A stretch of 64,000 nucleotides of DNA. Origin: Planctomyces sp. (GTDB lineage: Bacteria > Planctomycetota > Planctomycetia > Planctomycetales > Planctomycetaceae). Where the stretch lies: contig JAHBXW010000024.1 in NCBI GenBank assembly GCA_019636235.1, positions 1 to 64,000 of the forward strand, written 5' to 3'. This document shows, one piece after another, positions 9,315 through 63,432 of this stretch; within the stretch, counting starts at the first letter, position 1, and each line of letters starts with the position of its first letter. A model generated the notes under the pieces. That model ran no database searches, had not been told where the DNA came from, and saw nothing but the letters and a program-made list of their open reading frames with translations. The position numbers and the translations under genes were made by a program.

Positions 9315-9326
9315 ACGGGCGTCCGC

Positions 9327-10529: not shown

Positions 10530-10662
10530 ACGTTGCTCGGAGGGACCGCGGCGGGAGACGACATTGAAGGCAAAGGCGTACGGCGGGGTTGCGGCCCGCG
10601 AGGCGCCGGGGATTGTACGCGGAACGGCGCTGCGGGTTCAGTCGCGGGAGGCCGGCGGCGGC

Positions 10663-10690
10663 GCGGGCCTGCCGTCGCGGGCCTGCCGTC
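10663..10690. repeat. Tandem 14-bp duplication upstream of lutB
   Basis: GCGGGCCTGCCGTC occurs twice head to tail (10663-10676 and 10677-10690) and is followed by a partial third copy, GCGG. It lies just upstream of the -10-like TATACT at 10720. It could be a slipped-strand duplication or a repeated protein-binding site. Confidence 0.7.
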
Positions 10691-10719
10691 GCGGTTTCGT
10701 GGCCGGCGTGGAAACCGTC

Positions 10720-10725
10720 TATACT
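10720..10725 (+). promoter_or_regulatory. Candidate -10 box for lutB
   Basis: TATACT lies 62 bp before the lutB start. The matching -35 region (TTCGTG at 10696-10701, 18-bp spacing) is poor, so an activator may be needed. The 14-bp tandem repeat sits immediately upstream, where an activator site would be expected. Confidence 0.3.
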
Positions 10726-10787
10726 CGCGTGAGCGATTCGTCTCGCCATCCTTTGCATCCGTCCCGCCGCTGTTCCCCACGCTCCGC

Positions 10788-36043: not shown

Positions 36044-36738
36044 CCGCTCAGCAATGGCCGCGTCGAGGATTGGATCAGGCCGCCGCAGCGGACGGGAGAG
36101 CGCGGGCGTGGGAAAGCGCGTATTGCCGCTTTGAAACTCCACAACAGGAGGTGCGCAAGTTTCAGCGGCGGCTGAAATGGTTTGGAGCGGCAGGCTGGAG
36201 CAGGGAGTTGCGGGTGATCGAACTTTTCTGCGGCCGGGGGAATGGCCTGGCGGCGTGGGAATCGCTGGGGTTCTCCCACATCGAGGGCGTCGACCGTTCG
36301 CCGCGACTCCTGTCGGAGTATCGGGGAAATGCAATGTGCTCTGTCGCCGATTGCCGGGAAATTCCCGTGGCCAGTTCCTCCAGGGACGTGGCTGCAATTC
36401 ACGGAGGACTGCACCATTTGGAACGCCTTCCGCAGGACTTGGAGGACGTCGTTGGTGAGGTGCGCCGAATCTTGAAACCAGGCGGCCGGTTGTTAATTGT
36501 CGAACCCTGGCAGACGCCGTTCCTCGCACTTGTCCACGAATGCTGTCGGCGCCGAGTCGTCCGCAAACTGTGGCGCAAGCTGGATGCGCTGGCGGAAATG
36601 ACGGAGTTGGAAGCATCGACGTACTTTTCGTGGCTGGCGCAGCCGGAGGTTGTGCTGGAGAGCATCCATCGCGCCTTCGAGCCGGTCCGAATGCGGATTG
36701 CGTTCGGCAAGCTGTTCCTGCTGGCTCAACCTCGTTGA
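36040..36738 (+). CDS. Class I SAM-dependent methyltransferase
   Basis: 232 residues; its ATG overlaps the GT2 stop as ATGA, so translation is coupled. VIELFCGRGNGL is motif I, EGVDRS motif II, and RRILKPGGRLLIVEPW is the post-motif III strand of Methyltransf_11-type enzymes. HGGLHHLERLP lies between. The protein may methylate a sugar or lipid intermediate made by the preceding enzymes; this rests on gene order only. Confidence 0.85.
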   Translation: MTAQQWPRRGLDQAAAADGRARAWESAYCRFETPQQEVRKFQRRLKWFGAAGWSRELRVIELFCGRGNGLAAWESLGFSHIEGVDRSPRLLSEYRGNAMCSVADCREIPVASSSRDVAAIHGGLHHLERLPQDLEDVVGEVRRILKPGGRLLIVEPWQTPFLALVHECCRRRVVRKLWRKLDALAEMTELEASTYFSWLAQPEVVLESIHRAFEPVRMRIAFGKLFLLAQPR

Positions 36739-36762
36739 GGCGTCTTCCGGTCCGTCCGCCGC

Positions 36763-36793
36763 CATCGGCCGGATCAATCGATCCCGGCCGATG
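36763..36793 (+). terminator. Strong hairpin after the glycosylation operon
   Basis: CATCGGCCGG (36763-36772) pairs perfectly with CCGGCCGATG (36784-36793) over an 11-nt loop, 24 bp after the methyltransferase stop. No T-tract follows, so it would be a U-less terminator or a 3'-end stabilising hairpin. Confidence 0.4.
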
Positions 36794-36920
36794 GGTTCCC
36801 ACCGGGCGAGGTTCTTCCGATGATGGAGGGCGGCGTCCGTTCCCCGTGAGCGGGACGCTCCCGCCGTCACTGTCCCGCCGCAGGTCGAGCCCCGCGCTCG
36901 CCAAGAACGCCCTGACGCCC

Positions 36921-39900
36921 ATGACGCTCCGTCTCTCCCGCGCGATCGGCCTCGGAATCCTGGCCGCCCTGTCCACCTCCGCCCTCGCGGCCGAGGCCCC
37001 GGACGCCGGCCGTTCGCAAGTCGAGTTCAATCGCGACATCCGGCCGCTGCTGTCGGACCGCTGTTTCGCCTGCCACGGCCCCGACAAGAACACTCGCGAG
37101 GCCGATCTGCGGCTCGACACCGAAGACGGGCTGCGCGGCGAGGCGGGCGAGGGCGGGGCCGTGACGCCAGGCCGCCCGGACGACAGCGAGTTGATCCGTC
37201 GGATCGAGTCCGACGATCCGGACGAGCGCATGCCGCCGCCAGCGTTCGGGAAGGATCTCACTCCCGAGGAGCGCGGCCTGCTGCGACGCTGGGTCGAACA
37301 GGGCGCCGAGTGGCAGGGGCACTGGGCGTTTCAGCCGATCCAGCGGGCGCGGCCCCCCGAGGTCTCCGATGCCGACTGGTCCCGTCACCCGATCGACCGG
37401 TTCGTCCTGGCGGCCATTGAACAGGAAGGACTGAGGCCGTCGCAGCTCGCCGATCCGCGGACGCTCGTGCGGCGGCTCAGCTTTGACCTGACGGGGCTGC
37501 CCCCGGCCCCGGACGTGGTGGAACGTTTCGCCAGCGACCCGTCCGAGGCCGCGTATGAACGGCTCGTCGACGAACTGCTGGCCAGCCCGCACTATGGCGA
37601 GCGGATGGCCATGTGGTGGCTGGACCTCGTGCGCTACGCGGACAGCGTCGGGTATCACGGCGATCAGTATGTCAGCGTGTCGCCGTATCGCGATTACGTG
37701 ATCCGAGCGTTCAACCGGAATATGCCGTTTGACGAATTCACCATCGAGCAATTGGCTGGCGACCTGCTGCCGGAGCCGACGCTCGAGCAGCGTGTGGCCT
37801 CGGGCTACAACCGGCTGGGCATGATGAGCGCGGAAGGGGGCGTGCAGCCCAAGGAGTATCTGTCGAAGTACATCGCTGAACGGGTGCGGAACGTCAGCGG
37901 GGCCTGGCTGGGCGTCACGCTCGGCTGTTGCGAATGCCACGACCACAAGTTCGACCCGTTCACGGCGAAGGATTTCTATCAATTCGAGGCGTTCTTCGCC
38001 GACATCCAGGAGCAGGGGTTGTACGGCGGGTCCGACGTCACGGGCCGCTGGGGCACGATGCTGCCCGTGCCGACGGCGGAGCAGAGCCGGCAACAGCGCG
38101 AACTCAACGAGCAGATGGCCGCTGTGCAGGCGCTGCTGGAAACGCCCACCGAAGCGCTGGCCCGCGAGCAGGTCGCCTGGGAGTCGGGACTCCGGGAATG
38201 GGCCGTGCTTCGTCCCGAAGCGCTGGAATCGTCCGGCGGCGCGACTCTGACTCTGCTGGAGGACGGTTCGATCCTGGCGTCCGGTGATAGTCCAGCGACA
38301 GACACGTACACGCTGGTCGTTTCCGCGCCGTCCGCTGCGGCGACGGCGCTGCGGCTGGAGGCCCTGCCGGATGACTCGCTGCCGCAGAAGGGCCCCGGTC
38401 GGGCCGGCAACGGCAACTTCGTGCTCAGCGAACTGGAGGTGGACTGGCTGCCCGCGGACGGCGGCGAACCGCAGCGCATCGCGCTCGAGAACGCGACCGC
38501 GACGTATGAACAGACGGGCGCGGCCGACGCCAATCCGTACAAGAAGTGGGCTGTCGCCGCGGCCATCGACGGAGACGCGCAGGGGCCGACCTGGGGTTGG
38601 GCCGTCATGGAGCAGGTGGGACGGCCGAACTCCGCGATCTTCGAGATCGCCGCCGGCACGCCGCTGGAACCGGGACAATTGCGGATCGTCCTCAAACAGA
38701 ATCTCGACAACCCGCAGCACACGCTGGGCCGATTCCGCCTCTCGACGACCTCAGCGGCGAAGCCGGTGCGCGCGGGCGACCTGCCCCCTGCGGACATCGA
38801 GGCGATTCTCCGCGTCGCCGGCGAAGCGCGTACCGAGGCGCAGCGGAACCAGTTGGCCGCACACTACCGGTCGATCGCCCCCAGCCTGCTGCCGCAGCGG
38901 CAGGAACTGGCCCGGCTCGAAGCGCGGAAGAAGGCTCTCGACGCGGCCATCACGCTGACGGTTGTCACCGAACGGACGGAGCCGCGCATGATCCGCGTCC
39001 TGAAGCGCGGCAACTGGATGGACGAGACGGGGGACGTCGTCGAGCCGGCGATTCCGGAATGGCTGGGCGCCGATCCTGTTCCCGGGGATCGGCGGCTGAC
39101 GCGACTCGATCTCGCGCAATGGATCGTTTCGCCGCGGAACCCGCTGACGGCGCGGGCCACGGTCAACCGTCTCTGGAAGCTGCTGTTCGGCGCGGGCCTG
39201 TCTCCGAAACTCGACGATCTGGGCGCGCAGGGGGAATGGCCCAGCCATCCGGAACTGCTGGACGCCCTGGCCGCCGAGTTCATGGATTCCGGCTGGGATT
39301 TCAAGCGGCTGATGAAACGGATCGTCATGTCGCGGGCCTATCGGCAGTCGTCGCTGGCGGCCGCGGAGCAGTCGGAGGCCGACCCTTACAACCGCTGGCT
39401 GTCTCGGCAGGGGCGTTGGCGGCTCGAGGCGGAGATGGTGCGCGACAACGCGCTGCAAGTCAGCGGTCTGATGGCGCCGATGGTCGGCGGCAAGAGCGTG
39501 CATCCGTATCAGCCGCGCGGCTACTGGTCCTATCTGAACTTCCCGATGCGGGAGTGGCAGAACGGGCAGGGGAACGAGCTGTATCGCCGCGGCGTGTACA
39601 CCCACTGGCAGCGGCAGTATCTGCATCCGGCGCTGCTGGCGTTCGACGCGCCCGGCCGCGAGGAATGCACGGCGGACCGGCCCCGCTCCAATACGCCGCT
39701 GCAGGCGCTCGTCCTGCTGAATGATCCCAGCTACGTCGAGGCGGCCCGCGCCTTCGCGCAGCGGGCCCTCGAACTGGGAGGCGACAGCGATGACGCCCGC
39801 CTCGCCTGGCTGATCCGCGAAGCGCTGGCTCGCGAGCCGCGCCCCGAGGAAACGGCCGTCCTGCTGGACCTCCTGAACCGGCACCGGCAGGAGTACGGCG

Positions 39901-40040
39901 GCGATTCCGCGGCCGTCGACGCCCTGCTGAAGATCGGCGACCTGCCCGTCCCCGCAGCGCTGCACCGCGCCGACCTCGCCGCGTGGATCAGCGTGACCCG
40001 CGCAATCCTGAACCTGCACGAAACCATCACGCGCAACTGA
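36921..40040 (+). CDS. PSCyt1 / DUF1549 / DUF1553 (PSD1) planctomycete cytochrome protein
   Basis: 1039 residues from the ATG at 36921, which has a clear signal peptide (LGILAALSTSALAAEA); the frame is open further upstream but lacks support. A planctomycete cytochrome c domain with CFACHGP (C48, C51, H52) is followed by DUF1549 (about 130-340, HPIDRFVLAAIE, SFDLTGLPPAP), a middle insertion (about 400-620) that may be a carbohydrate-binding-like beta domain, and DUF1553 (about 690-1000, RATVNRLWKLLFG, PREECTADRPRSNTPLQAL-type end). Function is unproven; such proteins are exported and always paired with DUF1501 partners, as here. Confidence 0.9.
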   Translation: MTLRLSRAIGLGILAALSTSALAAEAPDAGRSQVEFNRDIRPLLSDRCFACHGPDKNTREADLRLDTEDGLRGEAGEGGAVTPGRPDDSELIRRIESDDPDERMPPPAFGKDLTPEERGLLRRWVEQGAEWQGHWAFQPIQRARPPEVSDADWSRHPIDRFVLAAIEQEGLRPSQLADPRTLVRRLSFDLTGLPPAPDVVERFASDPSEAAYERLVDELLASPHYGERMAMWWLDLVRYADSVGYHGDQYVSVSPYRDYVIRAFNRNMPFDEFTIEQLAGDLLPEPTLEQRVASGYNRLGMMSAEGGVQPKEYLSKYIAERVRNVSGAWLGVTLGCCECHDHKFDPFTAKDFYQFEAFFADIQEQGLYGGSDVTGRWGTMLPVPTAEQSRQQRELNEQMAAVQALLETPTEALAREQVAWESGLREWAVLRPEALESSGGATLTLLEDGSILASGDSPATDTYTLVVSAPSAAATALRLEALPDDSLPQKGPGRAGNGNFVLSELEVDWLPADGGEPQRIALENATATYEQTGAADANPYKKWAVAAAIDGDAQGPTWGWAVMEQVGRPNSAIFEIAAGTPLEPGQLRIVLKQNLDNPQHTLGRFRLSTTSAAKPVRAGDLPPADIEAILRVAGEARTEAQRNQLAAHYRSIAPSLLPQRQELARLEARKKALDAAITLTVVTERTEPRMIRVLKRGNWMDETGDVVEPAIPEWLGADPVPGDRRLTRLDLAQWIVSPRNPLTARATVNRLWKLLFGAGLSPKLDDLGAQGEWPSHPELLDALAAEFMDSGWDFKRLMKRIVMSRAYRQSSLAAAEQSEADPYNRWLSRQGRWRLEAEMVRDNALQVSGLMAPMVGGKSVHPYQPRGYWSYLNFPMREWQNGQGNELYRRGVYTHWQRQYLHPALLAFDAPGREECTADRPRSNTPLQALVLLNDPSYVEAARAFAQRALELGGDSDDARLAWLIREALAREPRPEETAVLLDLLNRHRQEYGGDSAAVDALLKIGDLPVPAALHRADLAAWISVTRAILNLHETITRN

Positions 40041-40117
40041 CCGCGCCCGCCACCTTCGCCGCGCGGCACACGCCCGACCGCGGCCGTTGAACACAGATCC
40101 CGACCCAGTCACCCGCC

Positions 40118-41569
40118 ATGCACAATCCCATCTCGATTGCGACTTCGCTGCCCCCCCTGCCGTCGCCCATCGCCCGCCGGACGTTCCTCCGCCGCAGCGG
40201 CGTCAGCGTCGGCTCGATGGCGCTGGGCAGCCTCCTCGCGCGGGACGCCCGCGCCCAGGACGCGTCCGACTTAAAGGGCGTCATCCAGCCGCTCCACTTC
40301 GCCCCCCGCGCCAAACGGGTCATCTGGCTGTACATGGCCGGCGGCATGAGCCATCTCGACACGTTCGACCATAAACCCAAGCTGGCGGAACTCGATGGCC
40401 AGCCGATGCCCGAATCGTTCACCAAGGGGCAGCAGATCGCCCAGCTCCAGGGCGCCAAGCTGAACTGCTTCGCCCCTCAGCACCCGTTCCAGCAATGGGG
40501 CGCCTCGGGGCAGGAGATCAGCGCCATCTGGCCCGAACTCGCCAGCCGCTGCGCCGACGACATGTGCATCGTCCGCTCGCTGTTCACGGAGGCCATCAAT
40601 CACGACCCGGCCCACACGTTCATGAACACCGGGTCGATGATCTCCGGCCGGCCGGCGATGGGGTCGTGGCTGCTGTACGGCCTCGGCGCCGATACCCAGG
40701 AGCTGCCCGGATTCGTCGTCATGGTCTCCACCGGCAACTACGGGCAGAAGCAACCCATCGCCGCGCGGCAGTGGCACAGCGGGTTTCTCCCCAGCCGGTT
40801 TCAGGGAGTCGAGTTCCGCAGCACGGGGGATCCGGTGCTCTATGTCCGCCGGCCGGGCGGCGTTGATGAAGGCCGACAGCGGGACGTCGTGGAGGCCGTC
40901 GCCGCGCTGAACCGCCTCGAAGAAGCCGAGACGGCCGATCCCGAGATCGCCACGCGGATCAGCCAGTACGAAATGGCGTTTCGCATGCAGACCAGCGTCC
41001 CCGAGCTGATGGACGTCCGCAACGAGCCGCAGCACATCCTGGACCTGTACGGTTCGCAGCCGGGGGATGGCAGCTTCGCGTCGAACTGCCTGTTGGCGCG
41101 GCGGCTGGCCGAGCGCGGCGTCCGGTTCATCCAGCTCTACCACCGCGACTGGGACCATCACGGGGCGATCAAAGACCACATCGCCGGTTCGGCGGCGGAG
41201 GTCGATCGCGGCGCGGCGGCGCTCATCACCGATCTCAAGCAGCGCGGCATGCTGGACGACACGATCGTCGTGTTCGGATCGGAGTTCGGCCGCACGCCGA
41301 TGGCGCAGGGGAACGGCCGCGACCACCACCTGGCCGGCTTCACGATGTGGCTGGCCGGCGGCGGTTTCAAGCCGGGCTTCAACTATGGCGCGACCGACGA
41401 ACTCGGCTACCACGCCGTCGAGAACCGCGTCTCGGTCCACGACCTGCATGCGACGATGCTGCATCAGCTCGGCATCGACCACATGAAGTTCAGCGTCAAG
41501 TTTCAGGGTCTGGACAGCCGGCTGACGGGCGTCGAGCCGGCGCGGATCGTGACGGACCTGCTGGTCTGA
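40118..41569 (+). CDS. DUF1501 protein (Tat-exported sulfatase-like fold)
   Basis: 483 residues. The leader has RRTFLRRSG, a twin-arginine motif, followed by a hydrophobic stretch and DARAQD. The DUF1501 domain resembles the alkaline-phosphatase/sulfatase fold: WLYMAGGMSHLDTFD at the start, GSEFGRTPMAQG and DLHATMLHQLG near the end. The nucleophile position has no Cys/Ser sulfatase signature, so activity is not assured. It lies 77 bp after the PSD1 gene, the usual operon partner. Confidence 0.9.
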   Translation: MHNPISIATSLPPLPSPIARRTFLRRSGVSVGSMALGSLLARDARAQDASDLKGVIQPLHFAPRAKRVIWLYMAGGMSHLDTFDHKPKLAELDGQPMPESFTKGQQIAQLQGAKLNCFAPQHPFQQWGASGQEISAIWPELASRCADDMCIVRSLFTEAINHDPAHTFMNTGSMISGRPAMGSWLLYGLGADTQELPGFVVMVSTGNYGQKQPIAARQWHSGFLPSRFQGVEFRSTGDPVLYVRRPGGVDEGRQRDVVEAVAALNRLEEAETADPEIATRISQYEMAFRMQTSVPELMDVRNEPQHILDLYGSQPGDGSFASNCLLARRLAERGVRFIQLYHRDWDHHGAIKDHIAGSAAEVDRGAAALITDLKQRGMLDDTIVVFGSEFGRTPMAQGNGRDHHLAGFTMWLAGGGFKPGFNYGATDELGYHAVENRVSVHDLHATMLHQLGIDHMKFSVKFQGLDSRLTGVEPARIVTDLLV

Positions 41570-50860: not shown

Positions 50861-53800
50861 ATGAAGATTGCGATCGCGGGACTACTTCTGGCGTTGTCGG
50901 CCGCCGCCGCTCAGGCCGGCAGCCTGGGCTATTATCGGACTCCCGCCGTCGGCGAAGCCATCATCGTGTTCGCCGCCGAGGGAGACTTGTGGAAGGTTGG
51001 CATCGACGGCGGAACCGCCACGCGGCTGACCAGCCATCCGGGCGAGGAGACGACGCCGGCCATCTCTCCGGATGGCGCCACGCTGGCCTTCACGGCCGCC
51101 TACGAGGGCGTCGTCGAGGTCTACACGATGCCCCTCTCCGGCGGACTCCCCACACGCCGCACGTTTGAGAACGGTCGCGCCAGCGTCTGCGGCTGGACCC
51201 CCGACGGCAAAGTCCTTTACGCCACGGATCACGACTCCACGCTGCCCAATCAGCAACTCTTCACCATCCATCCGGGGACCGGCGCCCGCGAGGCGATTCC
51301 CCTCTCCCAGGCCAGCTACGGAGCGTACGACGCCGAAGGCCAGACGCTGGTCTTCACCCGACTGCCCTTCAACGGCAGCCACACGAAGCGCTATCGCGGC
51401 GGCACGGTCCAGAATCTCTGGAAGTTCCAGGCCGGCGCCGGCGAGGCCGTGTCCCTGACTGCCGATCATCCCGGGACCAGCAAAGACCCCATGTGGTGGG
51501 AGGGACGCATCTACTTCGCCGCCGATCGCGACGGCGTCATGAATCTCTGGTCGATGGACGCCGACGGCCAGGACCTCCGGCAACACACGCACCACGCCGA
51601 CTACGACATCCAGTCCCCCGCACTTGGACACGGCCGGGTCGTCTATCAGCTTGGGGCCGAACTCCGGCGGCTGGACATCGCCAGCGGCGAGGACCGGGCG
51701 TTGTCGATTGAACTGGAATCCGATCTCGACCAGACGCGGGAGCAATGGATCCGCAAGCCGATGGACTTCCTGAGCGCGGCGCATCCATCGCCGGATGGCG
51801 ACCGCGTCGTGCTGACTGCCCGCGGCCGCGTGTTTGTCGCACCGCACCGGCAGGGGCGCGTGGTGGAAGCCGCGCGGAAGCCGGGAGTGCGGTATCGCCG
51901 CGCGCGGTTCCTCCCGGACGGCAAGTCGCTTGTCGCGCTGTCTGATGAATCAGGAGAGATCGAACTCTGGAAACTCCCCGCCGACGGCATCGGCGACCCG
52001 GTCCAGCTCTCACAAAACGGCGATGTGCTGCGGTGGGACTCGCTCCCCTCGCCGGACGGCCGCTATATCGCCCATCACGACAAGAACTACCGACTGTGGC
52101 TGCTCGACCTCCGCGACAACTCCGACCAGAAGATCGACGAGAGTGCCATCGACAGCTTCGCTGACCTGGCCTGGTCGCCGGACAGCCGATTCCTCGCCTA
52201 CACGGCGCATGCCGCGAACGCCTATCGCCAGGTCCGCATTTTTCGCGTCGAGCAGAAGGCCGCGACGACCATCACCAGCGACCGGTTCGAAAGCCACAGT
52301 CCGGCCTGGAGCCCCGACGGCAAATGGTTGTATCTGCTCAGCGACCGCAACCTGGAATCGGCCGTTGGCAGCCCCTGGGGCGCCAATCAGCCCGAGCCAT
52401 TCTTCGACCGCCCCACCAAGGTCTATCACATCGCGTTGAAAGAGGGTCTTCGCTCCCCGTTCCAGCCGCAGGACGAACTCGCCCCTGCGGACGACAAACC
52501 GGCCGACGCGGCGAAGAAGGACCAGCCCGACGACAAACCAGCGGAGAAATCCGCGTCCGCCAGCGACGGAGAGCAGGCCGACGGCGACTCCTCAAAGAAC
52601 GCGAATGCGGGCGACAATCCGGACAAGCCGGCCGAGAAGCCGCCCACGCCCGTGCAGATCGAGTTCGCCGGAATCGAATCGCGCCTGCAGGAGGTTCCGG
52701 TCCCGCCCGGCAACTATCGCGACCTGACCGTCACGCCCAAGGCGCTGTTTTTCACCAACGTCGATCGACGCAGCGGGGATTCGAAACGTCGTCTCGAGGG
52801 CGTCGAGATCAAGAACGAGAACGTCGAGGTCAAGACGGTGCTCGCGGACATAAAGAGCTACGAACTGTCCGCTGACCGCAAGAAACTGCTGATCCACAAG
52901 AACGATTCGCTGTTTCTGGTGGACGCGGAGCCCAAGCCCGCCGACACGGACAAGAAGGACGTCGTGTTGCGGAACCTGACTCTGTCGGTGATCCCGCGCG
53001 AGGAATGGCGCCAGATGTTCACGGAGGCCTGGCGACTGGAGCGGGATTACTTCTACGACCGCAATCTGCACGGCGTCGACTGGCCGGCGATGCTGGAGAA
53101 ATACAGCCCGCTGGTGGACCGGGTGACGACGCGGGCGGAGCTGTCCGACCTGATCGCCCAGATGGTCGGCGAGCTGTCGGCGCTGCATACGTTCGTCCGC
53201 GGCGGCGACCTGCGCGAGGGTCCAGACAAGGTGGGCCTCGGCTTCCTCGGCGCCCGGCTGCGACGCGCCGACAATCTGGGGGGCTACAAGGTCGAACATG
53301 TGTTCCGACACGACCCCGACATGCCGGAACGGGCCAGCCCGCTGTCGCGGCCGGGAGTTTCGGTCGTCGCGGGGGACGTCCTGGAGGCGATCAACGGCCA
53401 GCCCACGCTGTCGGTCCCGGACTTCGCGATGCTGCTCAGGAACCAGGCCGGCGCGCAGGTGCGGCTGCGGGTGAAGCCGGGCGACGGGGGAGACGCGCGG
53501 GACGTGATCGTCGTGCCGCTGACCCTGTCCGCCGTCGAGGACCTGCGCTATCACGAATGGGAGCACACCCGACGGCTGCGCGTCGAGGAGCTGTCGGGCG
53601 GTCGGATCGGCTACGTCCATCTGCGGGCCATGCGGGGCGTCGACTTCACCGACTGGGCCCGCGGGTATTATCCGGTGTTCAATCGGGAAGGGTTGATCAT
53701 CGACGTCCGGCACAACCGCGGCGGCAACATCGACTCCTGGATTCTCGGCCGACTGTTGCGGAAGGTCTGGTTCTACTGGAACGACCGCGCCGGGAATCCG

Positions 53801-54217
53801 CCGGTGTGGAACATGCAGCAGGCCTTCCGGGGCCACATGGCGGCAATCTGCAACGAGCGCACAGCCAGCGACGGCGAGGCGTTCGCCGAAGGCTTCAAAC
53901 GGCTGGGGCTCGGCAAGCTGTTCGGAACCCGCACCTGGGGCGGCGAGATCTGGCTGAGCGCCAACAACTTCCTGGTCGACAACGGCATCGCCACCGCCGC
54001 GGAGAACGGCGTCTTCGGACCCGAAGGGGAATGGCTCATTGAAGGGCATGGCGTCGAGCCGGATGTCGTCGTCGACAATCTGCCCCACGCCACGTTCCTC
54101 GGCGAGGACGCCCAACTCGACGCTGCCGTGAAGCATCTTCTGCAGCAGATCGAGGAGCACCCGATTCCGCCGGTGCAGCCTCCCGCCTCGCCGAACAAGT
54201 CCCTCGTCCCGCGCTGA
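50861..54217 (+). CDS. Tricorn-like S41 protease with beta-propeller and PDZ domains
   Basis: 1118 residues with a signal peptide (IAGLLLALSAAAAQAG). A TolB/DPP-like propeller region covers about 30-530, with ISPDGATLAF, PSPDGDRVV and WSPDSRFLAY blades. A Lys/Asp/Pro-rich insert (about 535-605) separates it from the rest. A C1 helical domain (about 700-780) contains His776 in SALHTFV, PDZ is about 800-890, and the C2 catalytic domain contains ERTASDGEAFAEG with the nucleophile Ser1003. The family degrades peptides; the leader suggests a periplasmic enzyme, unlike archaeal tricorn. Starts downstream of the palindrome. Confidence 0.9.
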   Translation: MKIAIAGLLLALSAAAAQAGSLGYYRTPAVGEAIIVFAAEGDLWKVGIDGGTATRLTSHPGEETTPAISPDGATLAFTAAYEGVVEVYTMPLSGGLPTRRTFENGRASVCGWTPDGKVLYATDHDSTLPNQQLFTIHPGTGAREAIPLSQASYGAYDAEGQTLVFTRLPFNGSHTKRYRGGTVQNLWKFQAGAGEAVSLTADHPGTSKDPMWWEGRIYFAADRDGVMNLWSMDADGQDLRQHTHHADYDIQSPALGHGRVVYQLGAELRRLDIASGEDRALSIELESDLDQTREQWIRKPMDFLSAAHPSPDGDRVVLTARGRVFVAPHRQGRVVEAARKPGVRYRRARFLPDGKSLVALSDESGEIELWKLPADGIGDPVQLSQNGDVLRWDSLPSPDGRYIAHHDKNYRLWLLDLRDNSDQKIDESAIDSFADLAWSPDSRFLAYTAHAANAYRQVRIFRVEQKAATTITSDRFESHSPAWSPDGKWLYLLSDRNLESAVGSPWGANQPEPFFDRPTKVYHIALKEGLRSPFQPQDELAPADDKPADAAKKDQPDDKPAEKSASASDGEQADGDSSKNANAGDNPDKPAEKPPTPVQIEFAGIESRLQEVPVPPGNYRDLTVTPKALFFTNVDRRSGDSKRRLEGVEIKNENVEVKTVLADIKSYELSADRKKLLIHKNDSLFLVDAEPKPADTDKKDVVLRNLTLSVIPREEWRQMFTEAWRLERDYFYDRNLHGVDWPAMLEKYSPLVDRVTTRAELSDLIAQMVGELSALHTFVRGGDLREGPDKVGLGFLGARLRRADNLGGYKVEHVFRHDPDMPERASPLSRPGVSVVAGDVLEAINGQPTLSVPDFAMLLRNQAGAQVRLRVKPGDGGDARDVIVVPLTLSAVEDLRYHEWEHTRRLRVEELSGGRIGYVHLRAMRGVDFTDWARGYYPVFNREGLIIDVRHNRGGNIDSWILGRLLRKVWFYWNDRAGNPPVWNMQQAFRGHMAAICNERTASDGEAFAEGFKRLGLGKLFGTRTWGGEIWLSANNFLVDNGIATAAENGVFGPEGEWLIEGHGVEPDVVVDNLPHATFLGEDAQLDAAVKHLLQQIEEHPIPPVQPPASPNKSLVPR

Positions 54218-55596: not shown

Positions 55597-57678
55597 TCAG
55601 CGATTCACGAGGAACTCGGTCGAGTTCAGGTAGGCCCAGTAGGCGTCCGCGAGGCTCTCGCTCGTCGCCGATTGAACGGCCGCCCCGCGCATCCGCGTCG
55701 CCTGCCGCACCGCCTGACGAAACGCCGCCAGCTCCAGCGGCGTCGGCTCGCGCGACAACGTCGACAGGCACAGCCGACGCAGCTTCTCCGTCTCGGAAAC
55801 GCTGGCCGACAGCACTGCATTCAGGTACGTCCCCGGCCGACCGCTGACCGCCTCCTGCACCAGCTCGCCGTTCATCATCACCAGCGCCTGCGGCAGAGAA
55901 CCATCGAACGTCGACGTCTCCCCGTTCTCCTCGTTGTCCAGCACCGAGTAGAACTGCGACAGCCAGTGCTTCCGCCGTTCGACGACCTCCGACCAGCTGC
56001 CGACCCCCGACCGATCCGCCGTCGTCGTCGCCAGCAGGGAATCGAACAGTTGCTCGGCCGTCAGCGGCTTCACGTACATCCGGGCGAACAGCGGACGCTC
56101 GCCGCGGTCCGGCGCATCGGCCTCGTTGTCCGGGATGATTCGACTCGACAAGTGGTACAGCCGCGTCGAGCACAATTGCCGCACAAGCGCCCGGATGTCG
56201 TAATCCGACTGCACGAATTCCTCGGTCAGCGCGTCCAGAATCTCCGGATGCGTCGGCGGGTTGTGCGGGCCCATGTCGTCCACCGGAGCTGTGAAGCCCC
56301 GGCCGAAGAGCTGCGCCCACAGCCGGTTCACGAACGCCGCCGCCAGTTGCGGCCGATCCCCCGAACTCATCAGCCGGGCCAGCTCGCGACGCCGGTTCAC
56401 TTCGGGGCCTTCCTCGATCGCCTGCCCTTCGAACTTCGGCCAGGCGACGCGCATTACGCCCCCCAGCGTCTCGTAGTAGCTCGGATCGCCCACCGGCCGG
56501 CTGACAAGTTCCCTGACCATCCGCGAACCGCCGTCCGCGTCCCGGCCTTCCCGTTCGACGACGTCCGTCTGTTGAAAGAACGCATTGAGCTGCCAGAACT
56601 TCTCCTGGCCCCAGTCCTTCACGACGGGGTGCACATGGCACTGCGAGCATTGCACCTGCTGGCAGAGCAGAATCCGGAACGTGACGGCCGTCGCCGGCAC
56701 GGCCTCGTTGTTGAGATGGGCCAGCAGGAAATTGGCGGCGCCGTTCTCGTGATCGGCCCCCTCGGCCGCCACGAGTTCACCCACCGTCTCCGACCACGGC
56801 CGATTCCGATGGAACTGGTCCCGGAGAAACTGCACCAGCGCATCCCGGTCGATGTCCCGCTCCGGCGCCCGGCCGACCAGCAGGTTCGACCACACCGTCG
56901 CGAAATGCGTCGCAAACGTCGGCTCGTTCAACAGCCGCTCGACCACTGCGGCGCGCTTGCGCGGATTCTTATCCTGCAGAAAGGCTTCGACCGTCGCCGC
57001 GTCCGGAATCCGGCCGGCCAGATCCAGATGCACGCGCCGCAGCCACTCGCTGTCCGCGGCTTCTGGAGACGGCTGGACGCCAGCCTCCGTCCACGCCGCC
57101 GCGAGTCGGTCGTCAATGAACGCGACCAGGTCGCCCCTCGGCACGGCTGGCCCGGGCGCGGGATCATCGCCGGTCGTTGACGCGATGCCCGTCGCCGCCG
57201 GATCGCGCAGCCGCACGCGCGGCAGCGCCGAATCGTCGTCCGCATCGCCCCCCGGCGGGGCCTCGAGCTCGTTCGCCCCCTCCGGGCGGCCCTCCGGCGG
57301 CCCGGCCAATTGCTGCGGACCTTCGCCATTTCGCAGCCACAGCGCGCACGCCGCCAACAGGGCACAGGCGACGCCGGCGAACGCCCATCGGCGACGGCCT
57401 GGCGCCCGGCCCGACGCAACTGGCGCCGGCAGCGCAGGACGCGACAGGGCCGAATCGTCCTGCAGGGCCGCGAGCGTTCCCGGGAGGGCGACCGCTCCGC
57501 CTTCCACGGCGTCCCAGTGCAGGCAGCCATGCAGCAGCAGATAGTCGATGTACAGCGTTCGCGCCTCGCCATCCGTGGCCACGCGCTCTTCGAGCTGCGC
57601 ATGCCCGGCCTCATCGAGGCGTTCGTCGCAGAGCGCGTCGAGCAGGGTCAGAAAATGTTCGCGGTCGCGGGGGGTCAT
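55597..57678 (-). CDS. Anti-sigma-like domain fused to DUF1549/DUF1553
   Basis: 693 residues or so from the ATG at 57678, overlapping the ECF sigma stop as ATGA. Residues 1-60 (LLDALCDERLDEAGHAQLE and LYIDYLLLHGCLHWD) match the N-terminal domain of anti-sigma/FecR-like proteins encoded after planctomycete ECF sigma genes. A membrane helix at about 98-116 follows, then an acidic linker, DUF1549 (about 180-390, with CSQCH) and DUF1553 (about 430-690). It is the paralogue of the protein at 59702-61348 with an added cytosolic domain. I infer an anti-sigma factor whose exported sensor is a DUF1549/1553 unit. Confidence 0.82.
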   Translation of the reverse strand: MTPRDREHFLTLLDALCDERLDEAGHAQLEERVATDGEARTLYIDYLLLHGCLHWDAVEGGAVALPGTLAALQDDSALSRPALPAPVASGRAPGRRRWAFAGVACALLAACALWLRNGEGPQQLAGPPEGRPEGANELEAPPGGDADDDSALPRVRLRDPAATGIASTTGDDPAPGPAVPRGDLVAFIDDRLAAAWTEAGVQPSPEAADSEWLRRVHLDLAGRIPDAATVEAFLQDKNPRKRAAVVERLLNEPTFATHFATVWSNLLVGRAPERDIDRDALVQFLRDQFHRNRPWSETVGELVAAEGADHENGAANFLLAHLNNEAVPATAVTFRILLCQQVQCSQCHVHPVVKDWGQEKFWQLNAFFQQTDVVEREGRDADGGSRMVRELVSRPVGDPSYYETLGGVMRVAWPKFEGQAIEEGPEVNRRRELARLMSSGDRPQLAAAFVNRLWAQLFGRGFTAPVDDMGPHNPPTHPEILDALTEEFVQSDYDIRALVRQLCSTRLYHLSSRIIPDNEADAPDRGERPLFARMYVKPLTAEQLFDSLLATTTADRSGVGSWSEVVERRKHWLSQFYSVLDNEENGETSTFDGSLPQALVMMNGELVQEAVSGRPGTYLNAVLSASVSETEKLRRLCLSTLSREPTPLELAAFRQAVRQATRMRGAAVQSATSESLADAYWAYLNSTEFLVNR

Positions 57679-58241
57679 GACTGAGGCTGCGCGGCCAGTT
57701 GCCGCCGGATGCACTCCAGGAGCGTCCGCCGGATCCTGCCGATGGACTGGTACACGGAATTCGCGGGCCGCCCGAGGTGTTCGGCCTCCATCCGGCCGAC
57801 GGCCCCGGGGCGGTACCGCTTCTCAATGAGCTGTCGATCCTTGTCCCGCAGTTTCGCGAGGCACTGCCGAAGCGCCGCGCGCCGCAGGTCCAAGTCGTCC
57901 AGGGGCGCCTGGACGTCCTCCGTCGTCGCCTGCAGGAACTCCTCCTGAAACCGCAGCCGGTCGCGGCGCTTGCGCTGCCGGGATTTCAACACCTCGTAAT
58001 GCGCGATCTGCGCCGCCCAGGCGAAGAAGTTGGTCCCGGGAACGAACTGCTGATGCTTGGCCAGCATCACGACGTTCGTTTCCTGGAGCGCCTCTTCGGC
58101 ATCCTGACTGCGTCCCAGCTGCGCCAGGATGAACAGGTACAGTCGTCGCTGATGGCGTGTGAACAGCTGCACGAAATCGTCGCTGGGCGCCGTGGAGGCG
58201 CCGTCGCGTCCGGATGGAGCAGTCGCTGGCGGCTGAGTCAT
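57675..58241 (-). CDS. ECF RNA polymerase sigma factor (Rhodopirellula/Verrucomicrobium type)
   Basis: 188 residues. Region 2 (about 25-95) has QRRLYLFILAQLG, QDAEEALQETNVVMLAK and FFAWAAQIAHYEVLKSRQRKRR. Region 4 (about 115-175) has LRDKDRQLIEKRY and the helix-turn-helix SVYQSIGRIRRTLLECI. This is the family that reads planctomycete surface or stress regulons. Its coupled downstream gene encodes the probable anti-sigma. Confidence 0.92.
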   Translation of the reverse strand: MTQPPATAPSGRDGASTAPSDDFVQLFTRHQRRLYLFILAQLGRSQDAEEALQETNVVMLAKHQQFVPGTNFFAWAAQIAHYEVLKSRQRKRRDRLRFQEEFLQATTEDVQAPLDDLDLRRAALRQCLAKLRDKDRQLIEKRYRPGAVGRMEAEHLGRPANSVYQSIGRIRRTLLECIRRQLAAQPQS

Positions 58242-58338: not shown

Positions 58339-59616
58339 TCAGGAAATCAGGTCCTTGATCGGCGTGCCGCCGTTCGCGATCCGCATCGGCCGGCCGTTCT
58401 TCGACTGGTGCACCGTGTCCAGCGGAATCCGCAGGGCATGCGCCACTGTCGCCCACAGGTCGTTCGGCAGATAGCTGTCGCTCTCGATGCGGATGCCGTC
58501 AGCGTCGGTCTTGCCGATCGCCCGGCCGCCCGCCAGGCCGCCGCCGCCGATCAGCACCGACCAGCTCTGCGCCCAGTGGTCCCGGCCGACGTTCTGGTTG
58601 ATTCGCGGCGTCCGGCCGAACTCGCCCATGCAGACCACGACCGTGTTCTCGAACAGGCCGTGCGCCTTGAGATCGTTCACCAACCCGGCGATGCCCTTGT
58701 CCAGCTGCGGAAGGTGCGTCGTCCGCAAGCTGTCGAACACGTCGTTGTGCAGGTCCCAGCCGTTCGGATTGCGGACCTCGACGAAGGGCACGCCCGTCTG
58801 CACCAGCCGCCGGGCCATGATCAGCATGTTGCCGAACCCCGTGCTGCCGTAAGCCTGCCGCACTTCGGGCCGCTCCTGCTCGACGCGGAACGCCGCCATT
58901 TGCTCGGACGTCATCAGCTCGCGGGCCTTCTGGTAGACCTCCTTGTGGGCCTTGCCGATGTCGCCCCGGTTCGAACGGATGAAGCTGTCTTCGACGGCTT
59001 CCAGCATCTGCAGCCGCTGGTTCAGCCGCGCCAGGTCGCTGCCCATGTCGGCGTTCTGAATCCGGCCCTGGGCGTCGACGACAAACGGGGCATGCGCCAT
59101 GCCCAGGAAGCCCGGGTCCATGCCCCCGCCGCCGATCGAAATGAACGCCGGGATCTCCAGCTCCTTGCGCTTCGGCGCCAGTTCGTAGCTGACGACCGAG
59201 CCAAACGTCGGGTGCACGACGGTCGGGTTCGGCACGTAGGCCGTGTGCATGAAATAGGTGCCGCGGTTGTGGTCGGCCTCGCGGGTGCTCATCGAACGGA
59301 CCACGGACATGTTGTCCATGACCTTGGCCAGCTCCGGCAGGTGTTCGCAGATCTGCAGGTCGCGGTCGCCGGCGGTGGCGATCGGCTTGAATTCGCCGCC
59401 GTTCTTGGAGCCGGGTTTGAGATCCCACATGTCGATCGTGGGGGCGCCCCCCCCCAGCCAGATCAGGATGCAGGCCTTCTGCGCCTTCTGGACGTCGGCC
59501 GCGTGGGCCTCCAGGTGCGACAGAAAGCTCGTCGCCCCCAGCGCCGCAGCGCCGCCGGCGCTGACGTGGCTGAGGAAATGCCGCCGCGACATGCCGCTGG
59601 GAATTCGGAGTGACAT
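58339..59616 (-). CDS. DUF1501 protein
   Basis: 425 residues. The leader contains [11 protein letters not shown], a Tat motif, followed by [11 protein letters not shown]. The domain has [21 protein letters not shown] near the start and [18 protein letters not shown] and the terminal KNGRPM region. It is the second DUF1501 copy in the window, about 15 kb from the first and distinctly different in sequence. It lies 85 bp after the DUF1549/1553 gene at 59702-61348 and 97 bp before the sigma gene. Confidence 0.9.
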
Positions 59617-59701: not shown

Positions 59702-61348
59702 TCAGTGGTTCAATACAAACTCATTCGAATTCAACAGCGCCCAGTACAGGTCCTGGTAGGCCGCCGCCCGGTTGGGATTCAGCTTCATCACCTTCTCAAT
59801 CTTGCCATACTCCACCCGGGAGGGAATCCGGCCCAGAGCCGACACGTACAACGCCTGCACCCGGGCCGCGTCCGACTTGAACCGCGGGCTGTTCAACACC
59901 GCGGCCAGAAATCCCCCCGACTCCACCGAGGTCGCCTGACGCACCAGATCGCCGTTCATCAGCAGCAGCGCCTGCGGAATCGTCCCGCTGAACAGCGTCG
60001 GCTCGTCGTCGTCATTGCCTCCGAAAATCCGCATGAAGTCCCGCGTCCATTCTCGACGCTGACGCTGCGCCTCCTCATATCCCACCTGGCCGGACTGCTC
60101 GGCGTTCGTCGCAATCAGCAGAGATTCGTACAACTGCTCGACCGTCAGCGTCTTCACGTACATCCGGCTGAACAGCGGCGTCTCTCCCACCGAGGGATTG
60201 TCGATCTCGTTCCCGGGGTTGAACTGGCTCGTCAGGTTGTACGCCTCCGAGTTCGTGATCCAGCGAGTCAGCTGCTTGATGTCGTACCCGCTGCGGACGA
60301 ACTCCTCGGTCAGCCAGTCCAGAAGCTCGGGATGGCTGGGCGGGTTGTGCGGTCCCATGTCGTCCACCGGCCGCGTGAAGCCGTACCCGAAGTAGTGCCC
60401 CCACATGCGGTTCACGAACGCCCGCGCCACCTGGTGGTTGGGGTCGTTCTTCGCCATCAGGTCGGCCAGTTGCTGGCGGCGGTCCGTCTGGCCGCGCGAT
60501 TCCAGCTCCTGCTCGAAGTACTTCGGATAGGCCACCTTCATCAGACCCTGCCGCGTTTCGAAATACACCGGCCCCTGGTAGTCCCGGCGGACCAGCTCCG
60601 AGTAGTCGTCCACCATCTGGCCGCTGGCGGCGTCATAGCGATCGACGTCCCGGCGGCGCACCTGCCGCAGGAAGCTGTTGAACTCCCAGAACTGGTTCTG
60701 CTTCCAGTCGTTGAACGGATGATCGTGGCACTGCGTGCACTGCACCTGCATGCCCAGCAGGATCCGCGTCGCGCGGGCCGTCGCCTCGACCGCGTATTCC
60801 TCGTCGTTCGGATTGCCCTGCAACTGGCCCAGCAGGAAGTTGACCGCCCCGTTCTCCTCGAAGTGCCCCTCGGCCGTCATCAGGTCGAAGACGATCTCGT
60901 TCCAGGGACGGTTCCGCGCGAAGCTCTCGCGCAGGAACTTCTCGAGGCCGGGCCGGCTCGTTCGATCCGGCGCGTTGCGCCCCACCAGAATGTTCGCCCA
61001 GACTGTGGTCTGGTTGCGGACATGCCGCGGGTCCTCCAGCAGCCGCTCGATCAGCGCCGAGCGTTTCGCCGGATCCTTGTCCGCCAGAAACGCCTCCACC
61101 GTCGCCGAATCGGGGATCTGCCCGACCAGGTCCAGCGAGACCCGCCGCAGCCATTCCGCATCGTCCGCGACCGGGCTGGGGCGAACCTCGTTCTCCTCCC
61201 AACCGGTGCGGATGAACTCGTTGATCTTCTGGATGACCGGGTCATTCGAACCGGTCGTGAACGTCGACGACTTCTGCGCGGCGCCGGCGCTGGAAACCAG
61301 CAGCGCCGCCGCAATCATCGCTCGAACTGGTGTCGCGACTGTCCTCAT
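59702..61348 (-). CDS. DUF1549/DUF1553 protein
   Basis: 548 residues with a signal peptide ([15 protein letters not shown]). There is no PSCyt1 domain; a single CTQCHDH motif lies in DUF1549 ([13 protein letters not shown]). DUF1549 (about 45-255) has [12 protein letters not shown], and DUF1553 covers about 290-540 ([28 protein letters not shown]). Paralogous to residues 180-690 of the protein at 55597. A CTGAGA/TCTCAG and GGGAGC hairpin sits in its leader at 61378-61416. Confidence 0.9.
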
Positions 61349-61416: not shown

Positions 61417-61607
61417 ATTCCGGCCGGCACAGGACATCCGTCCGGCCGCCTTCATCATCTTACCGCCCGGACCCGGGGGACGTTCGCCGGATTCCGGCCC
61501 TTTTTTCGGCCCGGCCGCCCGACGGAAGTCCCTGCTGCGCAGCCCTTTGAGCCGAATGAATCGATCCTGACGCGCCGCTGCCGATTCGAAACGCCCACGC
61601 TGACCGC

Positions 61608-62039
61608 CTACGTCGCCGGATCGTTCCCTTCGAACTCCGGCGAGTCCACATCGCTGAACCCCTCCGCCAGCCGCCGCCGGGCCGACTCCGCCAACCGCTC
61701 GTAGCGACGGCGGATCAACTCCAACTCCCGGTCCTCCAGCTCCTCCAGATCAAGGAGCGCGTTATGCGCCCCCTCCAGCGACCGGATGATCTCATCCAGC
61801 TTGATCTGCACCGCCGCGCTGTCGCGGTTCTGAGAGTTCTGAATCAGAAACACCATCAGGAACGTGACGATCGTCGTCCCCGTGTTGATCACCAGCTGCC
61901 AGGTGTCCCCGAAGCCGAACAGCGGGCCCGTCAGCACCCACACGACGACAATCCCCATCGACACCAGAAACGCCAGCGGATGACCCGTCCAGCGCGCCGT
62001 CAGCTTCGCAAACCGGTTGAACCACGATCGCTGCGCCAT
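61608..62039 (-). CDS. Low-affinity iron permease family (PF04120) membrane protein
   Basis: 143 residues from the ATG at 62039, with GGAGGGCG just upstream; a longer frame to 62090 enters bioA. The N-terminus is WFNRFAKLTARWTGHP, followed by two helices (LAFLVSMGIVVVWVLTGPL and LVINTGTTIVTFLMVFLIQNSQNRD) and a coiled-coil tail rich in Glu/Arg. FLIQNSQNRD-x-AA-x-Q-x-KLDE is the family signature. Bacterial members are named after yeast Fet4 but lack its size, so iron transport is not shown. Follows bioA by 25 bp. Confidence 0.8.
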   Translation of the reverse strand: MAQRSWFNRFAKLTARWTGHPLAFLVSMGIVVVWVLTGPLFGFGDTWQLVINTGTTIVTFLMVFLIQNSQNRDSAAVQIKLDEIIRSLEGAHNALLDLEELEDRELELIRRRYERLAESARRRLAEGFSDVDSPEFEGNDPAT

Positions 62040-62064
62040 CGCCCGCCCTCCCGGATTCCGCACG

Positions 62065-63432
62065 TCACTGGGAACCTGTCGCTTCGTCAATCGACTCCAG
62101 CACCGCGTCGCACAACTGGTCCAGAAGCTCCACCGGCATCGCCGGCGCCGGCATCAGCACCACCACATCTCCCAGCGGGCGGACAATCACTCCCCGCCGC
62201 CGCGCGGCCAGCGTCGCCAGGTGCCCCGTCCGCCGCTCCGTGGGAAACGCCGCCAGCGTCTCCCGGTCCTGCACCAGTTCGATCCCCGCCATGATCCCCG
62301 CCCGTCGCACCTCACCGACGTGCGGATGCCCCTCCAGAACCGACAGCCGTTCTCCCAGCCGCGCCGACAGCGCCCGCACGTTGCCCAGCACGTTCGCCGT
62401 CTGGAACCGCTCCAGCGATGCCAGCGCCGCCGCGCAGCCCAGCGGGTTCCCCGTATAAGTGTGACCGTGAAAAAACGTCCGCCCCAGATGCGGCTCGCCC
62501 AGAAAGGCCTCGTAGATCGGCTCCGTCGTCAGCGTCGCCGCCAGCGGCAGATAACCCCCCGTCAGGCCCTTCGCCAGACACAGGATGTCCGGCGACACCG
62601 CCTCCTGCTCGCAGGCGAACATCGTCCCCGTCCGACCAAATCCGACCGCCACTTCGTCGGCGATCAGCGGCACATCGTACTGCCGCGTCAGCCGCCGCAG
62701 ATGCCGCAGGTAGCCCCGCGGATGCACCAGGATTCCCGCGGCCCCCTGCACCAGCGGCTCCACGACCACGGCCGCCAGCTCCGTGTGCTGTTCGCGGATG
62801 ATCCGTTCCGCCTCGTCAAAGCAGTGCTTCAGCCAGGCGGCGCGAGAATAGAACCCCGGCGGCGAACGCAGGCCGGCCGGCGTCGGCAACTCGATCGATG
62901 AGAACAGCAGCGGACCGTACACCTCGTGGAACACCGGGACGTGCCCCAGGCTGACGGCACCGATCGTGTCCCCGTGATACGCGTTGCCCAGCGTCGCGAA
63001 CCGCGTCCGCGATTGCGGCCCCAGCGGCTTCTGACGGTGGTACTGCCAGGCGATCTTGAGCGCCGCCTCGACGGCCGTCGCCCCGCTGTCCGAATAGAAC
63101 ACCTTTGTCAGCCCGGGGGGCGCCAGCGACGCCAGCTTGCGCGCCAGCTCGATCGACGGCCGGCTGCTGAGCCCCAATAGCGTCGTGTGCGCGACGCGGT
63201 CCAACTGGTCGCGGATCGCGGCGTCGATCTCCGGAACCCGGTGGCCGTGAACGTTGCACCACAACGAGGAGATGCCGTCCAGCCAGCGGCGCCCCTGCAC
63301 GTCGATCAGATGGAAGCCCTCCGCCGACTCGATGATCGGCGAATCCTCCATGCGGTACGACAGCATGGGCGTGAAGGGATGCCAGACATGATCCTGGTCC
63401 CAGCCGCGGAGCGTCAGCGGATCCGCCGCCAT
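62065..63432 (-). CDS. bioA: Adenosylmethionine-8-amino-7-oxononanoate transaminase BioA
   Basis: 455 residues, slightly longer than typical (about 430). [33 protein letters not shown], the PLP-associated [11 protein letters not shown] and the Lys in [12 protein letters not shown] are the class III aminotransferase marks with BioA-specific W-x-PFTQ-like start. It makes 7,8-diaminopelargonate for biotin synthesis. No other biotin gene is in view; the gene upstream is a Cys/Met enzyme, 3 bp away. Confidence 0.92.

Follow-up and report, generated by a model that had tools for sequence, protein, structure and literature searches.

A predicted membrane-spanning anti-sigma factor with an exported DUF1549/DUF1553 sensor, encoded in a conserved four-gene operon of Planctomycetaceae

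The window analyzed here, that is, the entire stretch of 64,000 nucleotides from Planctomyces sp. (assembly GCA_019636235.1, contig JAHBXW010000024.1, positions 1 to 64,000), carries on its minus strand a four-gene operon in which genes for an unfused DUF1549/DUF1553 protein, a DUF1501 protein and an extracytoplasmic function (ECF) sigma factor are followed by the gene of a fused membrane protein, hereafter 'the sensor'. We consider it fairly probable that this protein is a membrane-spanning anti-sigma factor with an exported DUF1549/DUF1553 sensor domain, a haem-type CxxCH motif as its input, and autoregulation of the operon as its output. This reading is built on results that were computed directly: the domain layout of the sensor, the recurrence of the operon, the association of the N-terminal domain with sigma genes, the conserved upstream motif and the selection acting on CxxCH. 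DUF1549, DUF1553 and DUF1501 are families of unknown function, and here one DUF1549/1553–DUF1501 pair comes with a sigma switch of its own and a predicted promoter, which would make the signal amenable to screening with a reporter.

Organization of the operon and architecture of the sensor

The predicted promoter of the window sigma factor (CGAACGT-N15-GGTAA, 61460..61486; this and all following operon features on the minus strand), a motif conserved in other genera, is located ∼110 nt upstream of the first gene. The latter (59702..61348) encodes the unfused exported protein of 548 residues (P0003; Pfam PSCyt2 7e-45, PSD1 1.4e-37) and precedes the gene of a 425-residue DUF1501 protein (58339..59616; Pfam 9.4e-94) with a signal of the twin-arginine translocation (Tat) type. 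The ECF sigma factor (57675..58241; 188 residues, P0002) scores 140.3 bits for TIGR02989 of NCBIfam, above the curated cut-off of 124.55, and its gene overlaps that of the 693-residue sensor (P0001; start ATG at 57678, end at 55597) by ATGA at 57675..57678. Among the 23 other loci whose start was assigned by script, 9 likewise have a four-base overlap (L049 has no assigned start, and that of L044 is an artefact of a TAG in the sensor frame).

The sensor comprises (i) an anti-sigma-type domain (residues 1–60; 57499..57678), annotated from a three-helix model, structural matches and upstream sigma genes, (ii) a membrane helix at about residues 98–118, preceded by Arg-Arg-Arg (57325..57387), (iii) a probably disordered exported linker (residues 119–180; 57139..57324), and (iv) the exported DUF1549/DUF1553 unit (residues 181–693; 55600..57138) with His 321 (56716..56718) and the CxxCH motif CSQCH at residues 344–348 (56635..56649). 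Pfam assigns DUF1549 (8.7e-40, 137.3 bits), starting at about residue 188, and DUF1553 (4.1e-37, 128.3 bits), both over the cut-off. In the AlphaFold model (mean predicted local distance difference test, pLDDT, 81) the N-terminus forms three helices (3–17, 23–35 and 37–51), the membrane helix spans residues 101–116 within a hydrophobic stretch at 98–116, and residues 118–181 are of low confidence (pLDDT <50 in the linker), beyond which a confident, mostly helical globular unit follows. Since three arginines precede the membrane helix, the N-terminus is predicted to be inside and CxxCH outside, according to the established positive-inside rule.

TIGR02989, Pfam and the model thus bear out the original prediction that an ECF sigma factor is coupled, through the ATGA overlap, to a protein in which a membrane helix links an N-terminal domain to a DUF1549/DUF1553 unit outside the membrane. 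As an overall interpretation that prediction is partly supported; it missed the four-gene operon, the promoter, the paralogy of the sensor to the first gene and the existence of a second version of the circuit.

For DUF1501, the best structural match has a Z-score of 14.9 (4.5 Å, 226 residues) at a model pLDDT of only 63. The 50 structural rows listed are sulfatases, phosphodiesterases, phosphatases and LtaS/YejM-type proteins, which we take to belong to the alkaline-phosphatase superfamily. DUF1501 is hence predicted to have an alkaline-phosphatase/sulfatase superfamily fold, and on the basis of this model the regulated pair may consist of a hydrolase with a haem-type partner. For the exported DUF1549/DUF1553 unit no clear fold was found, and matches to phycobilisome linkers were weak (Z <5) and set aside. 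A sequence search of the PDB returned nothing useful for the fused protein, its N-terminus or DUF1501.

Conservation of the operon and paralogy of the sensor

A set of 37 Planctomycetaceae genomes was assembled, of which 29, including that of the window, were read over a wide stretch (the other 8 not in full). The sigma factor and the fused sensor occur in 25 of the 29, so that sigma factor, N-terminal domain and exported unit are found together in 24 genomes besides the window, representing 23 other genera. In the remaining four (G009, G019, G024 and G032) the stretch read holds the DUF1549–DUF1501 pair only. The N-terminal domain lies in one frame with the exported unit in 24 of the 25 sensors, and its retention in orthologues, one of the points on which the original prediction could have failed, is thereby upheld. 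At L044 (G010, 8594..10729) a TAG separates the anti-sigma domain, in a frame of its own, from the exported unit, which may reflect a sequencing error or a broken sensor; the sensor locus L063 is cut by a contig end. DUF1501 adjoins the sigma gene in all 25 of these first-type loci, and the unfused DUF1549/1553 gene is present in 23, not being in the stretch read at L042 and L060.

A search from the DUF1501 side yielded at least 586 confirmed relatives, the best 80 of which are the named loci considered here; several lie on contigs that also supplied loci of the genome sets, and L172 and L252 are from one genome. The contigs recovered include Planctomycetaceae, Schlesneria, Planctomicrobium and Fuerstiella. 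A sigma gene follows DUF1501 in 46 of the 80, and a sensor follows in 44 of these 46, the remaining two ending within 1 kb; 24 of the 80 are first-type loci. Another 26 represent a DUF1549–DUF1501 pair, or DUF1501, with no adjoining sigma gene. Chance co-occurrence of a sigma gene with a DUF1549 fusion was considered and rejected in view of the pairing in 25 of 29 genomes and of the sigma genes at all 30 loci recovered with the N-terminal profile described below.

Sequence comparison identifies the exported part as a paralogue of the unfused DUF1549/1553 protein encoded in the same operon: the nearest relative of the sensor in the window genome is the product of the first gene (49% identity), the next reaching 34%. 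DUF1549 has 41 matches in that genome. Across loci, identity to the window proteins is 61–82% for DUF1501, 45–67% for the sigma factor and 35–54% for the sensor. (Alignments A1 and A4 were made without L044 and L049; L054 and L063 are missing from A1 as well, which includes 12 of the 23 unfused copies.)

The N-terminal domain as a sigma-linked module

When 99 genomes of the phylum were searched with a profile of the N-terminal domain, built from 23 family members, 20 of them gave a match at E ≤ 0.001. In every one of the 30 loci fetched with this profile an ECF sigma gene is located directly upstream on the same strand; five of these loci are operons of the window type, and some come from close genome pairs. 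Of ten further carriers that were scanned, nine have a FecR match at E ≤ 0.001 behind the membrane helix (six over the Pfam cut-off), and some of these proteins also contain LamG, a carbohydrate module or a serpin; the tenth carrier has a weak match to RskA_N. The proposal that the first ∼60 residues constitute a sigma-linked module common to FecR-type partners thus holds up. Because of the invariable upstream ECF sigma gene, and because the module precedes FecR-like domains elsewhere, it is very likely that the N-terminal domain is an anti-sigma domain. In a structural comparison of residues 3–60, RsiW (Z-score 6.3; 3.0 Å, 56 residues) and MucA (Z-score 5.7; 2.6 Å, 52 residues; and again at Z 5.3; 24–25% identity) account for three of the four best rows, all with Z <8, which carries little weight by itself.

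One carrier, at L114 (G121, 3..1707, minus strand), combines the anti-sigma-type N-terminus and a borderline FecR match with a serpin, and is possibly a protease-sensing anti-sigma factor.

A conserved motif upstream of the operon

A bipartite motif, CGAAYRT-N15-GGTWA, is conserved upstream of the first gene, the window site being located at 61486..61460. Removal of near-copies and short sequences reduced 34 upstream regions to 31. Ten of these contain the pair CGAAC-N17-GGTA, compared with at most 4 for the commonest pair in any of 20 shuffled sets. With a leave-one-out matrix, 26 of the 31 regions score over the 95% shuffle level and 24 over the 99% level, as does 1 of 21 control regions (6 pairs of the same kind with no adjacent sigma gene and 15 regions of other groups) (Fisher p 1e-7; p 0.009 against the 6 sigma-less pairs alone). 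This motif and that of the second version described below were both found and counted on the same sets, the control sets being separate. The strict pattern has a single exact match in the 5.6-Mb window genome, which is the operon's site, as against likewise 1 for the reversed control. We infer that the motif is the promoter of the window sigma factor, which predicts autoregulation.

The single control locus with a strong first-type motif, L061 of G019, has no sigma or sensor gene seen adjoining, and four weaker sigma-profile matches lie elsewhere in that genome.

A second version of the circuit in other planctomycetes

In other planctomycetes, mostly labelled Pirellulaceae, a second type of circuit is found with a more distant sigma factor (79–85 bits for TIGR02989 in the three scanned), an N-terminus of another kind, marked by a motif resembling LLxxLLgxxxPPDLtaRIL, and a different predicted promoter. 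The gene order is also DUF1549, DUF1501, sigma, sensor, e.g., at L170, L176 and L276, the last being the operon of Rhodopirellula europaea 6C, whose sensor has no Pfam match. Every second-type sigma gene in the named loci (20 of 20) is followed by a sensor. A profile of the second-type N-terminus recovered 14 loci, with an adjoining sigma gene in 12; at L197 a sigma gene is located ∼0.9 kb upstream, and at L200, a weak match, none is in view. Nine of the 14 loci encode DUF1549 fusions, several of which helped to build the profile. The L197 protein (G191) joins the second-type N-terminus to a von Willebrand A-type domain (PF12450).

The upstream motif of the second version, GTAC-N16-CGTT, occurs in 13 of 24 upstream regions (L203 and L226 among them have no adjacent sigma gene) against a shuffle maximum of 5. 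When scored as GRGTAC-N16-CGTT, it is found upstream of 15 of 22 second-type operons (the 24 rows minus L209 and L210, which are first-type and cut by contig ends), compared with 2 of 29 pairs with no sigma gene seen adjoining, in five of which (L217, L233, L237, L242 and L271) the contig ends soon after DUF1501 (Fisher p 8e-6). Among the 31 first-type operons a single one has it, as do 2 of 480 shuffles.

Phylogenetic analysis suggests that the fusions have separate origins. The fused and unfused copies of the first family cluster together (98.8% in the Shimodaira-Hasegawa-like approximate likelihood ratio test), the second-type fused copies cluster with their own unfused kin (99%), and a single origin of both fused forms was rejected by the approximately unbiased test of one all-fused clade (p 0.0003, on a quick tree from which six long-branch or outgroup rows had been dropped beforehand and L044 and L063 left out). 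Hence, the same circuit design appears to have arisen twice. Since neither fused group is well supported as a single clade (70 and 32), and since the second-type sensor L154 fell among unfused copies in one tree, the fusions within each lineage could number more than one. Homology of the two N-terminal modules was likewise considered; as hhalign gives a probability of 3.6% (E 0.012) they are treated as different, with the proviso that short helices may hide a distant link.

Retention of CxxCH and the question of haem

CxxCH is present in 25 of 25 first-type sensors, with the second His of CxxCHxH in 24, and in 44 of 47 sensors of an overlapping set (45 from named loci plus L168 and L169), the other three (L202, L208 and L265) being truncated at contig ends. 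Further evidence comes from 19 strongly diverged second-type sensors, whose scores for the DUF1549 profile range from 0 to 219 bits and whose median pairwise identity is 20% (13–70%; 15 clusters at 40%). Twelve of these were recognized by the N-terminal profile and six by the DUF1549 profile only, while L187, which is in the alignment of the N-terminal profile, was added by hand; its score against the unfused protein of the window is 61. In 48 unfused copies, 101 positions show an invariance of 95% or more. The diverged sensors retain a median of 10.5% of these positions, while the Cys, Cys and His of CxxCH, one Trp and the start Met are retained in all 19; three more Trp are retained at 79–95%. 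The six sensors known through the DUF1549 profile only could be motif-biased; yet a sensor lies behind every one of the 20 sigma genes of the second type found at named loci, so that none was lost by the recognition filter. We conclude from the alignments that strong selection acts on CxxCH in the sensors.

Eighteen of the 19 diverged sensors no longer have the second His of CxxCHxH. Another His (residue 637 of the R. europaea 6C sensor) is found in all 19 of them and in 17% of unfused copies; of the 15 second-type sensors that are intact, two of them from one genome, 12 have it. In the first type, the position of His 321 is His in 91% of 23 sensors as compared with 4% of 48 unfused copies. 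Both residues are candidate axial ligands. Two features of a c-type cytochrome are present: CxxCH lies on the predicted exported side, and the window genome encodes a maturation protein, a frame of 1345 residues that scores over the cut-off of PF01578 (cytochrome c assembly).

Retention of CxxCH in all 19 diverged sensors, while other positions invariant in the family eroded, supports the view that the motif is the sensing element, probably with covalently bound haem. The original prediction of a sensing site at CxxCH is strengthened in so far as selection on the motif is concerned. Erosion of this extent moreover favors a signal at CxxCH that is redox or a small molecule over recognition of a protein partner. 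More tentatively, and with somewhat less than even confidence, we propose that anti-sigma factors with a covalent c-type haem input were built twice by copying the operon's own DUF1549/1553 gene and fusing the copy to two different sigma-binding modules, one lineage then having eroded to CxxCH, a few Trp and an invariant His.

Proposed mechanism and alternative explanations

In the mechanism that we favor, the cytoplasmic N-terminal helices of the sensor would hold the ECF sigma factor encoded just upstream, and the exported part, a duplicate of the operon's DUF1549/1553 protein, would act as sensor. A change of redox or ligand state at the exported CxxCH, most likely carrying covalent haem, would be passed on via the membrane helix and the linker such that the sigma factor is let go, probably by proteolysis in the long linker or the membrane. 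Freed sigma factor would then transcribe its own operon from CGAAYRT-N15-GGTWA and so raise the amounts of both the DUF1549/1553–DUF1501 pair and the switch itself. Sigma binding, the motif's role as promoter, inhibition as the sign of regulation, haem, the signal and the release step are inferred components of this scheme.

Several observations weigh against it. The N-terminus ahead of DUF1549 matches no Pfam or NCBIfam family, and a Z-score of ∼6 for a 56-residue helical bundle may reflect a common arrangement, given that an unrelated AP-2 chain scores 5.9. No chain with a cytochrome c fold is listed among the structural matches of the whole sensor model. As for the promoter, 5 of the 31 upstream regions fall below the 95% shuffle level, the sole strict match in the congener G001 lies elsewhere (the operon's site there ends in GGTAG, deviating in the last base), and pairs with no adjacent sigma gene have the first-type (L061) or the second-type motif (L226 and L263). 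Furthermore, the strict pattern has 186 matches in 61 genomes against 148 for the reversed control and is thus hardly commoner than the latter; there is no sign of a large regulon, and the operon is the one well-supported target, with others possible.

An alternative explanation is that the exported copy reads DUF1501 or a shared substrate, as its unfused sister presumably does, so that the sigma factor is freed if DUF1501 is missing or substrate is bound, and CxxCH is a structural or metal site only. The paralogy of the sensor to the operon's own protein, the constant company of DUF1501 (25 of 25) and the unfused copy (23 of 25) at first-type loci, and the higher conservation of DUF1501 relative to sigma factor and sensor would all fit, as would L068 and L182, where a second-type sensor directly precedes DUF1501 and the 14–18 kb read contain no unfused DUF1549 copy (so too L146–L149). 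A surface that recognizes a partner should, however, resist erosion, whereas the 19 diverged sensors have eroded except for CxxCH while the unfused copies remained well conserved, and we therefore regard this explanation as unlikely, though the most serious competitor. The sign of regulation could also be reversed, since the first 59 residues of Escherichia coli FecR are reported, in excerpts of PMC7406223, to be essential for sigma activity, which counts against an inhibitor. The N-terminal domain would then be required for activity of the sigma factor, by stabilizing it or by aiding its binding to polymerase, and be gated by the exported part. The occurrence of the same module ahead of FecR-like domains in other planctomycetes agrees with such a role, but the window sensor has no FecR (PF04773) match at E ≤ 1 in Pfam and its modelled N-terminus resembles the inhibitors RsiW and MucA, which makes a co-activator improbable. 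Finally, the sensor could be a membrane-anchored DUF1549/1553 enzyme that merely adjoins a sigma gene; the lack of a curated family covering its N-terminus leaves room for this view, which the adjacency in 25 of 29 genomes, the frequent gene overlap, the sigma genes beside all 30 N-terminal modules and the second fusion of separate origin render very improbable.

Relation to known systems

Like the window sensor, planctomycete FecR-type anti-sigma factors are encoded directly behind a sigma gene and have a single membrane helix between a short helical domain in the cytoplasm and an exported part; they differ in that the latter is FecR, to which LamG, a carbohydrate module or a serpin is added in some, instead of DUF1549/1553, and in that the window operon has two further genes upstream. 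RsiW and MucA are among the best structural matches to the predicted fold of residues 3–60. In contrast to them, the window sensor exports a DUF1549/1553 unit, and its N-terminal domain has no CxxC zinc motif since it holds only two lone cysteines (17 and 52). PSCyt2/PSD1 plus DUF1501 pairs of planctomycetes correspond to the first two genes of the operon, with the exported sensor domain belonging to the same family, but the window pair is followed by its own sigma and sensor genes, unlike the 26 of 80 named loci in which no sigma gene adjoins.

The ECF sigma factor RB10049 of Rhodopirellula baltica rises under heat, cold and salt, and has been proposed to regulate RB10051, a PSD1 plus PSC2 protein (excerpts of PMC2754498, citing Studholme et al.). 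Compared by description, this resembles the window operon in that an ECF sigma factor is proposed to regulate a DUF1549/1553 protein. Since R. europaea 6C has a second-type operon, RB10049–RB10051 may be a relative of the second version. The excerpts of PMC2754498 make no mention of an anti-sigma domain or fusion, promoters, a double origin or CxxCH retention. In the literature searched, a sigma link to DUF1549/1553 was found in excerpts of that paper only, so that an earlier mention of the architecture is still possible; planctomycete ECF sigma factors are the subject of Jogler 2012 and Wiegand 2020, as cited in excerpts of PMC8103513. No haem-c input to an ECF sigma factor was found in the literature searched, the long result lists having been covered in part. 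If CxxCH carries haem, the sensor would represent such an input.

Neighboring genes

Other genes of the window include the following. A large PSCyt1-PSCyt2-PSD1 protein (1166 residues) followed by a DUF1501 protein (483 residues) is encoded on the plus strand at 36540..41569, and a Tricorn-like protease with propeller, PDZ and S41 domains at 50861..54217 (plus strand). Just upstream of the operon's predicted promoter lies the gene of a protein of the low-affinity iron permease family (61608..62090, minus strand).

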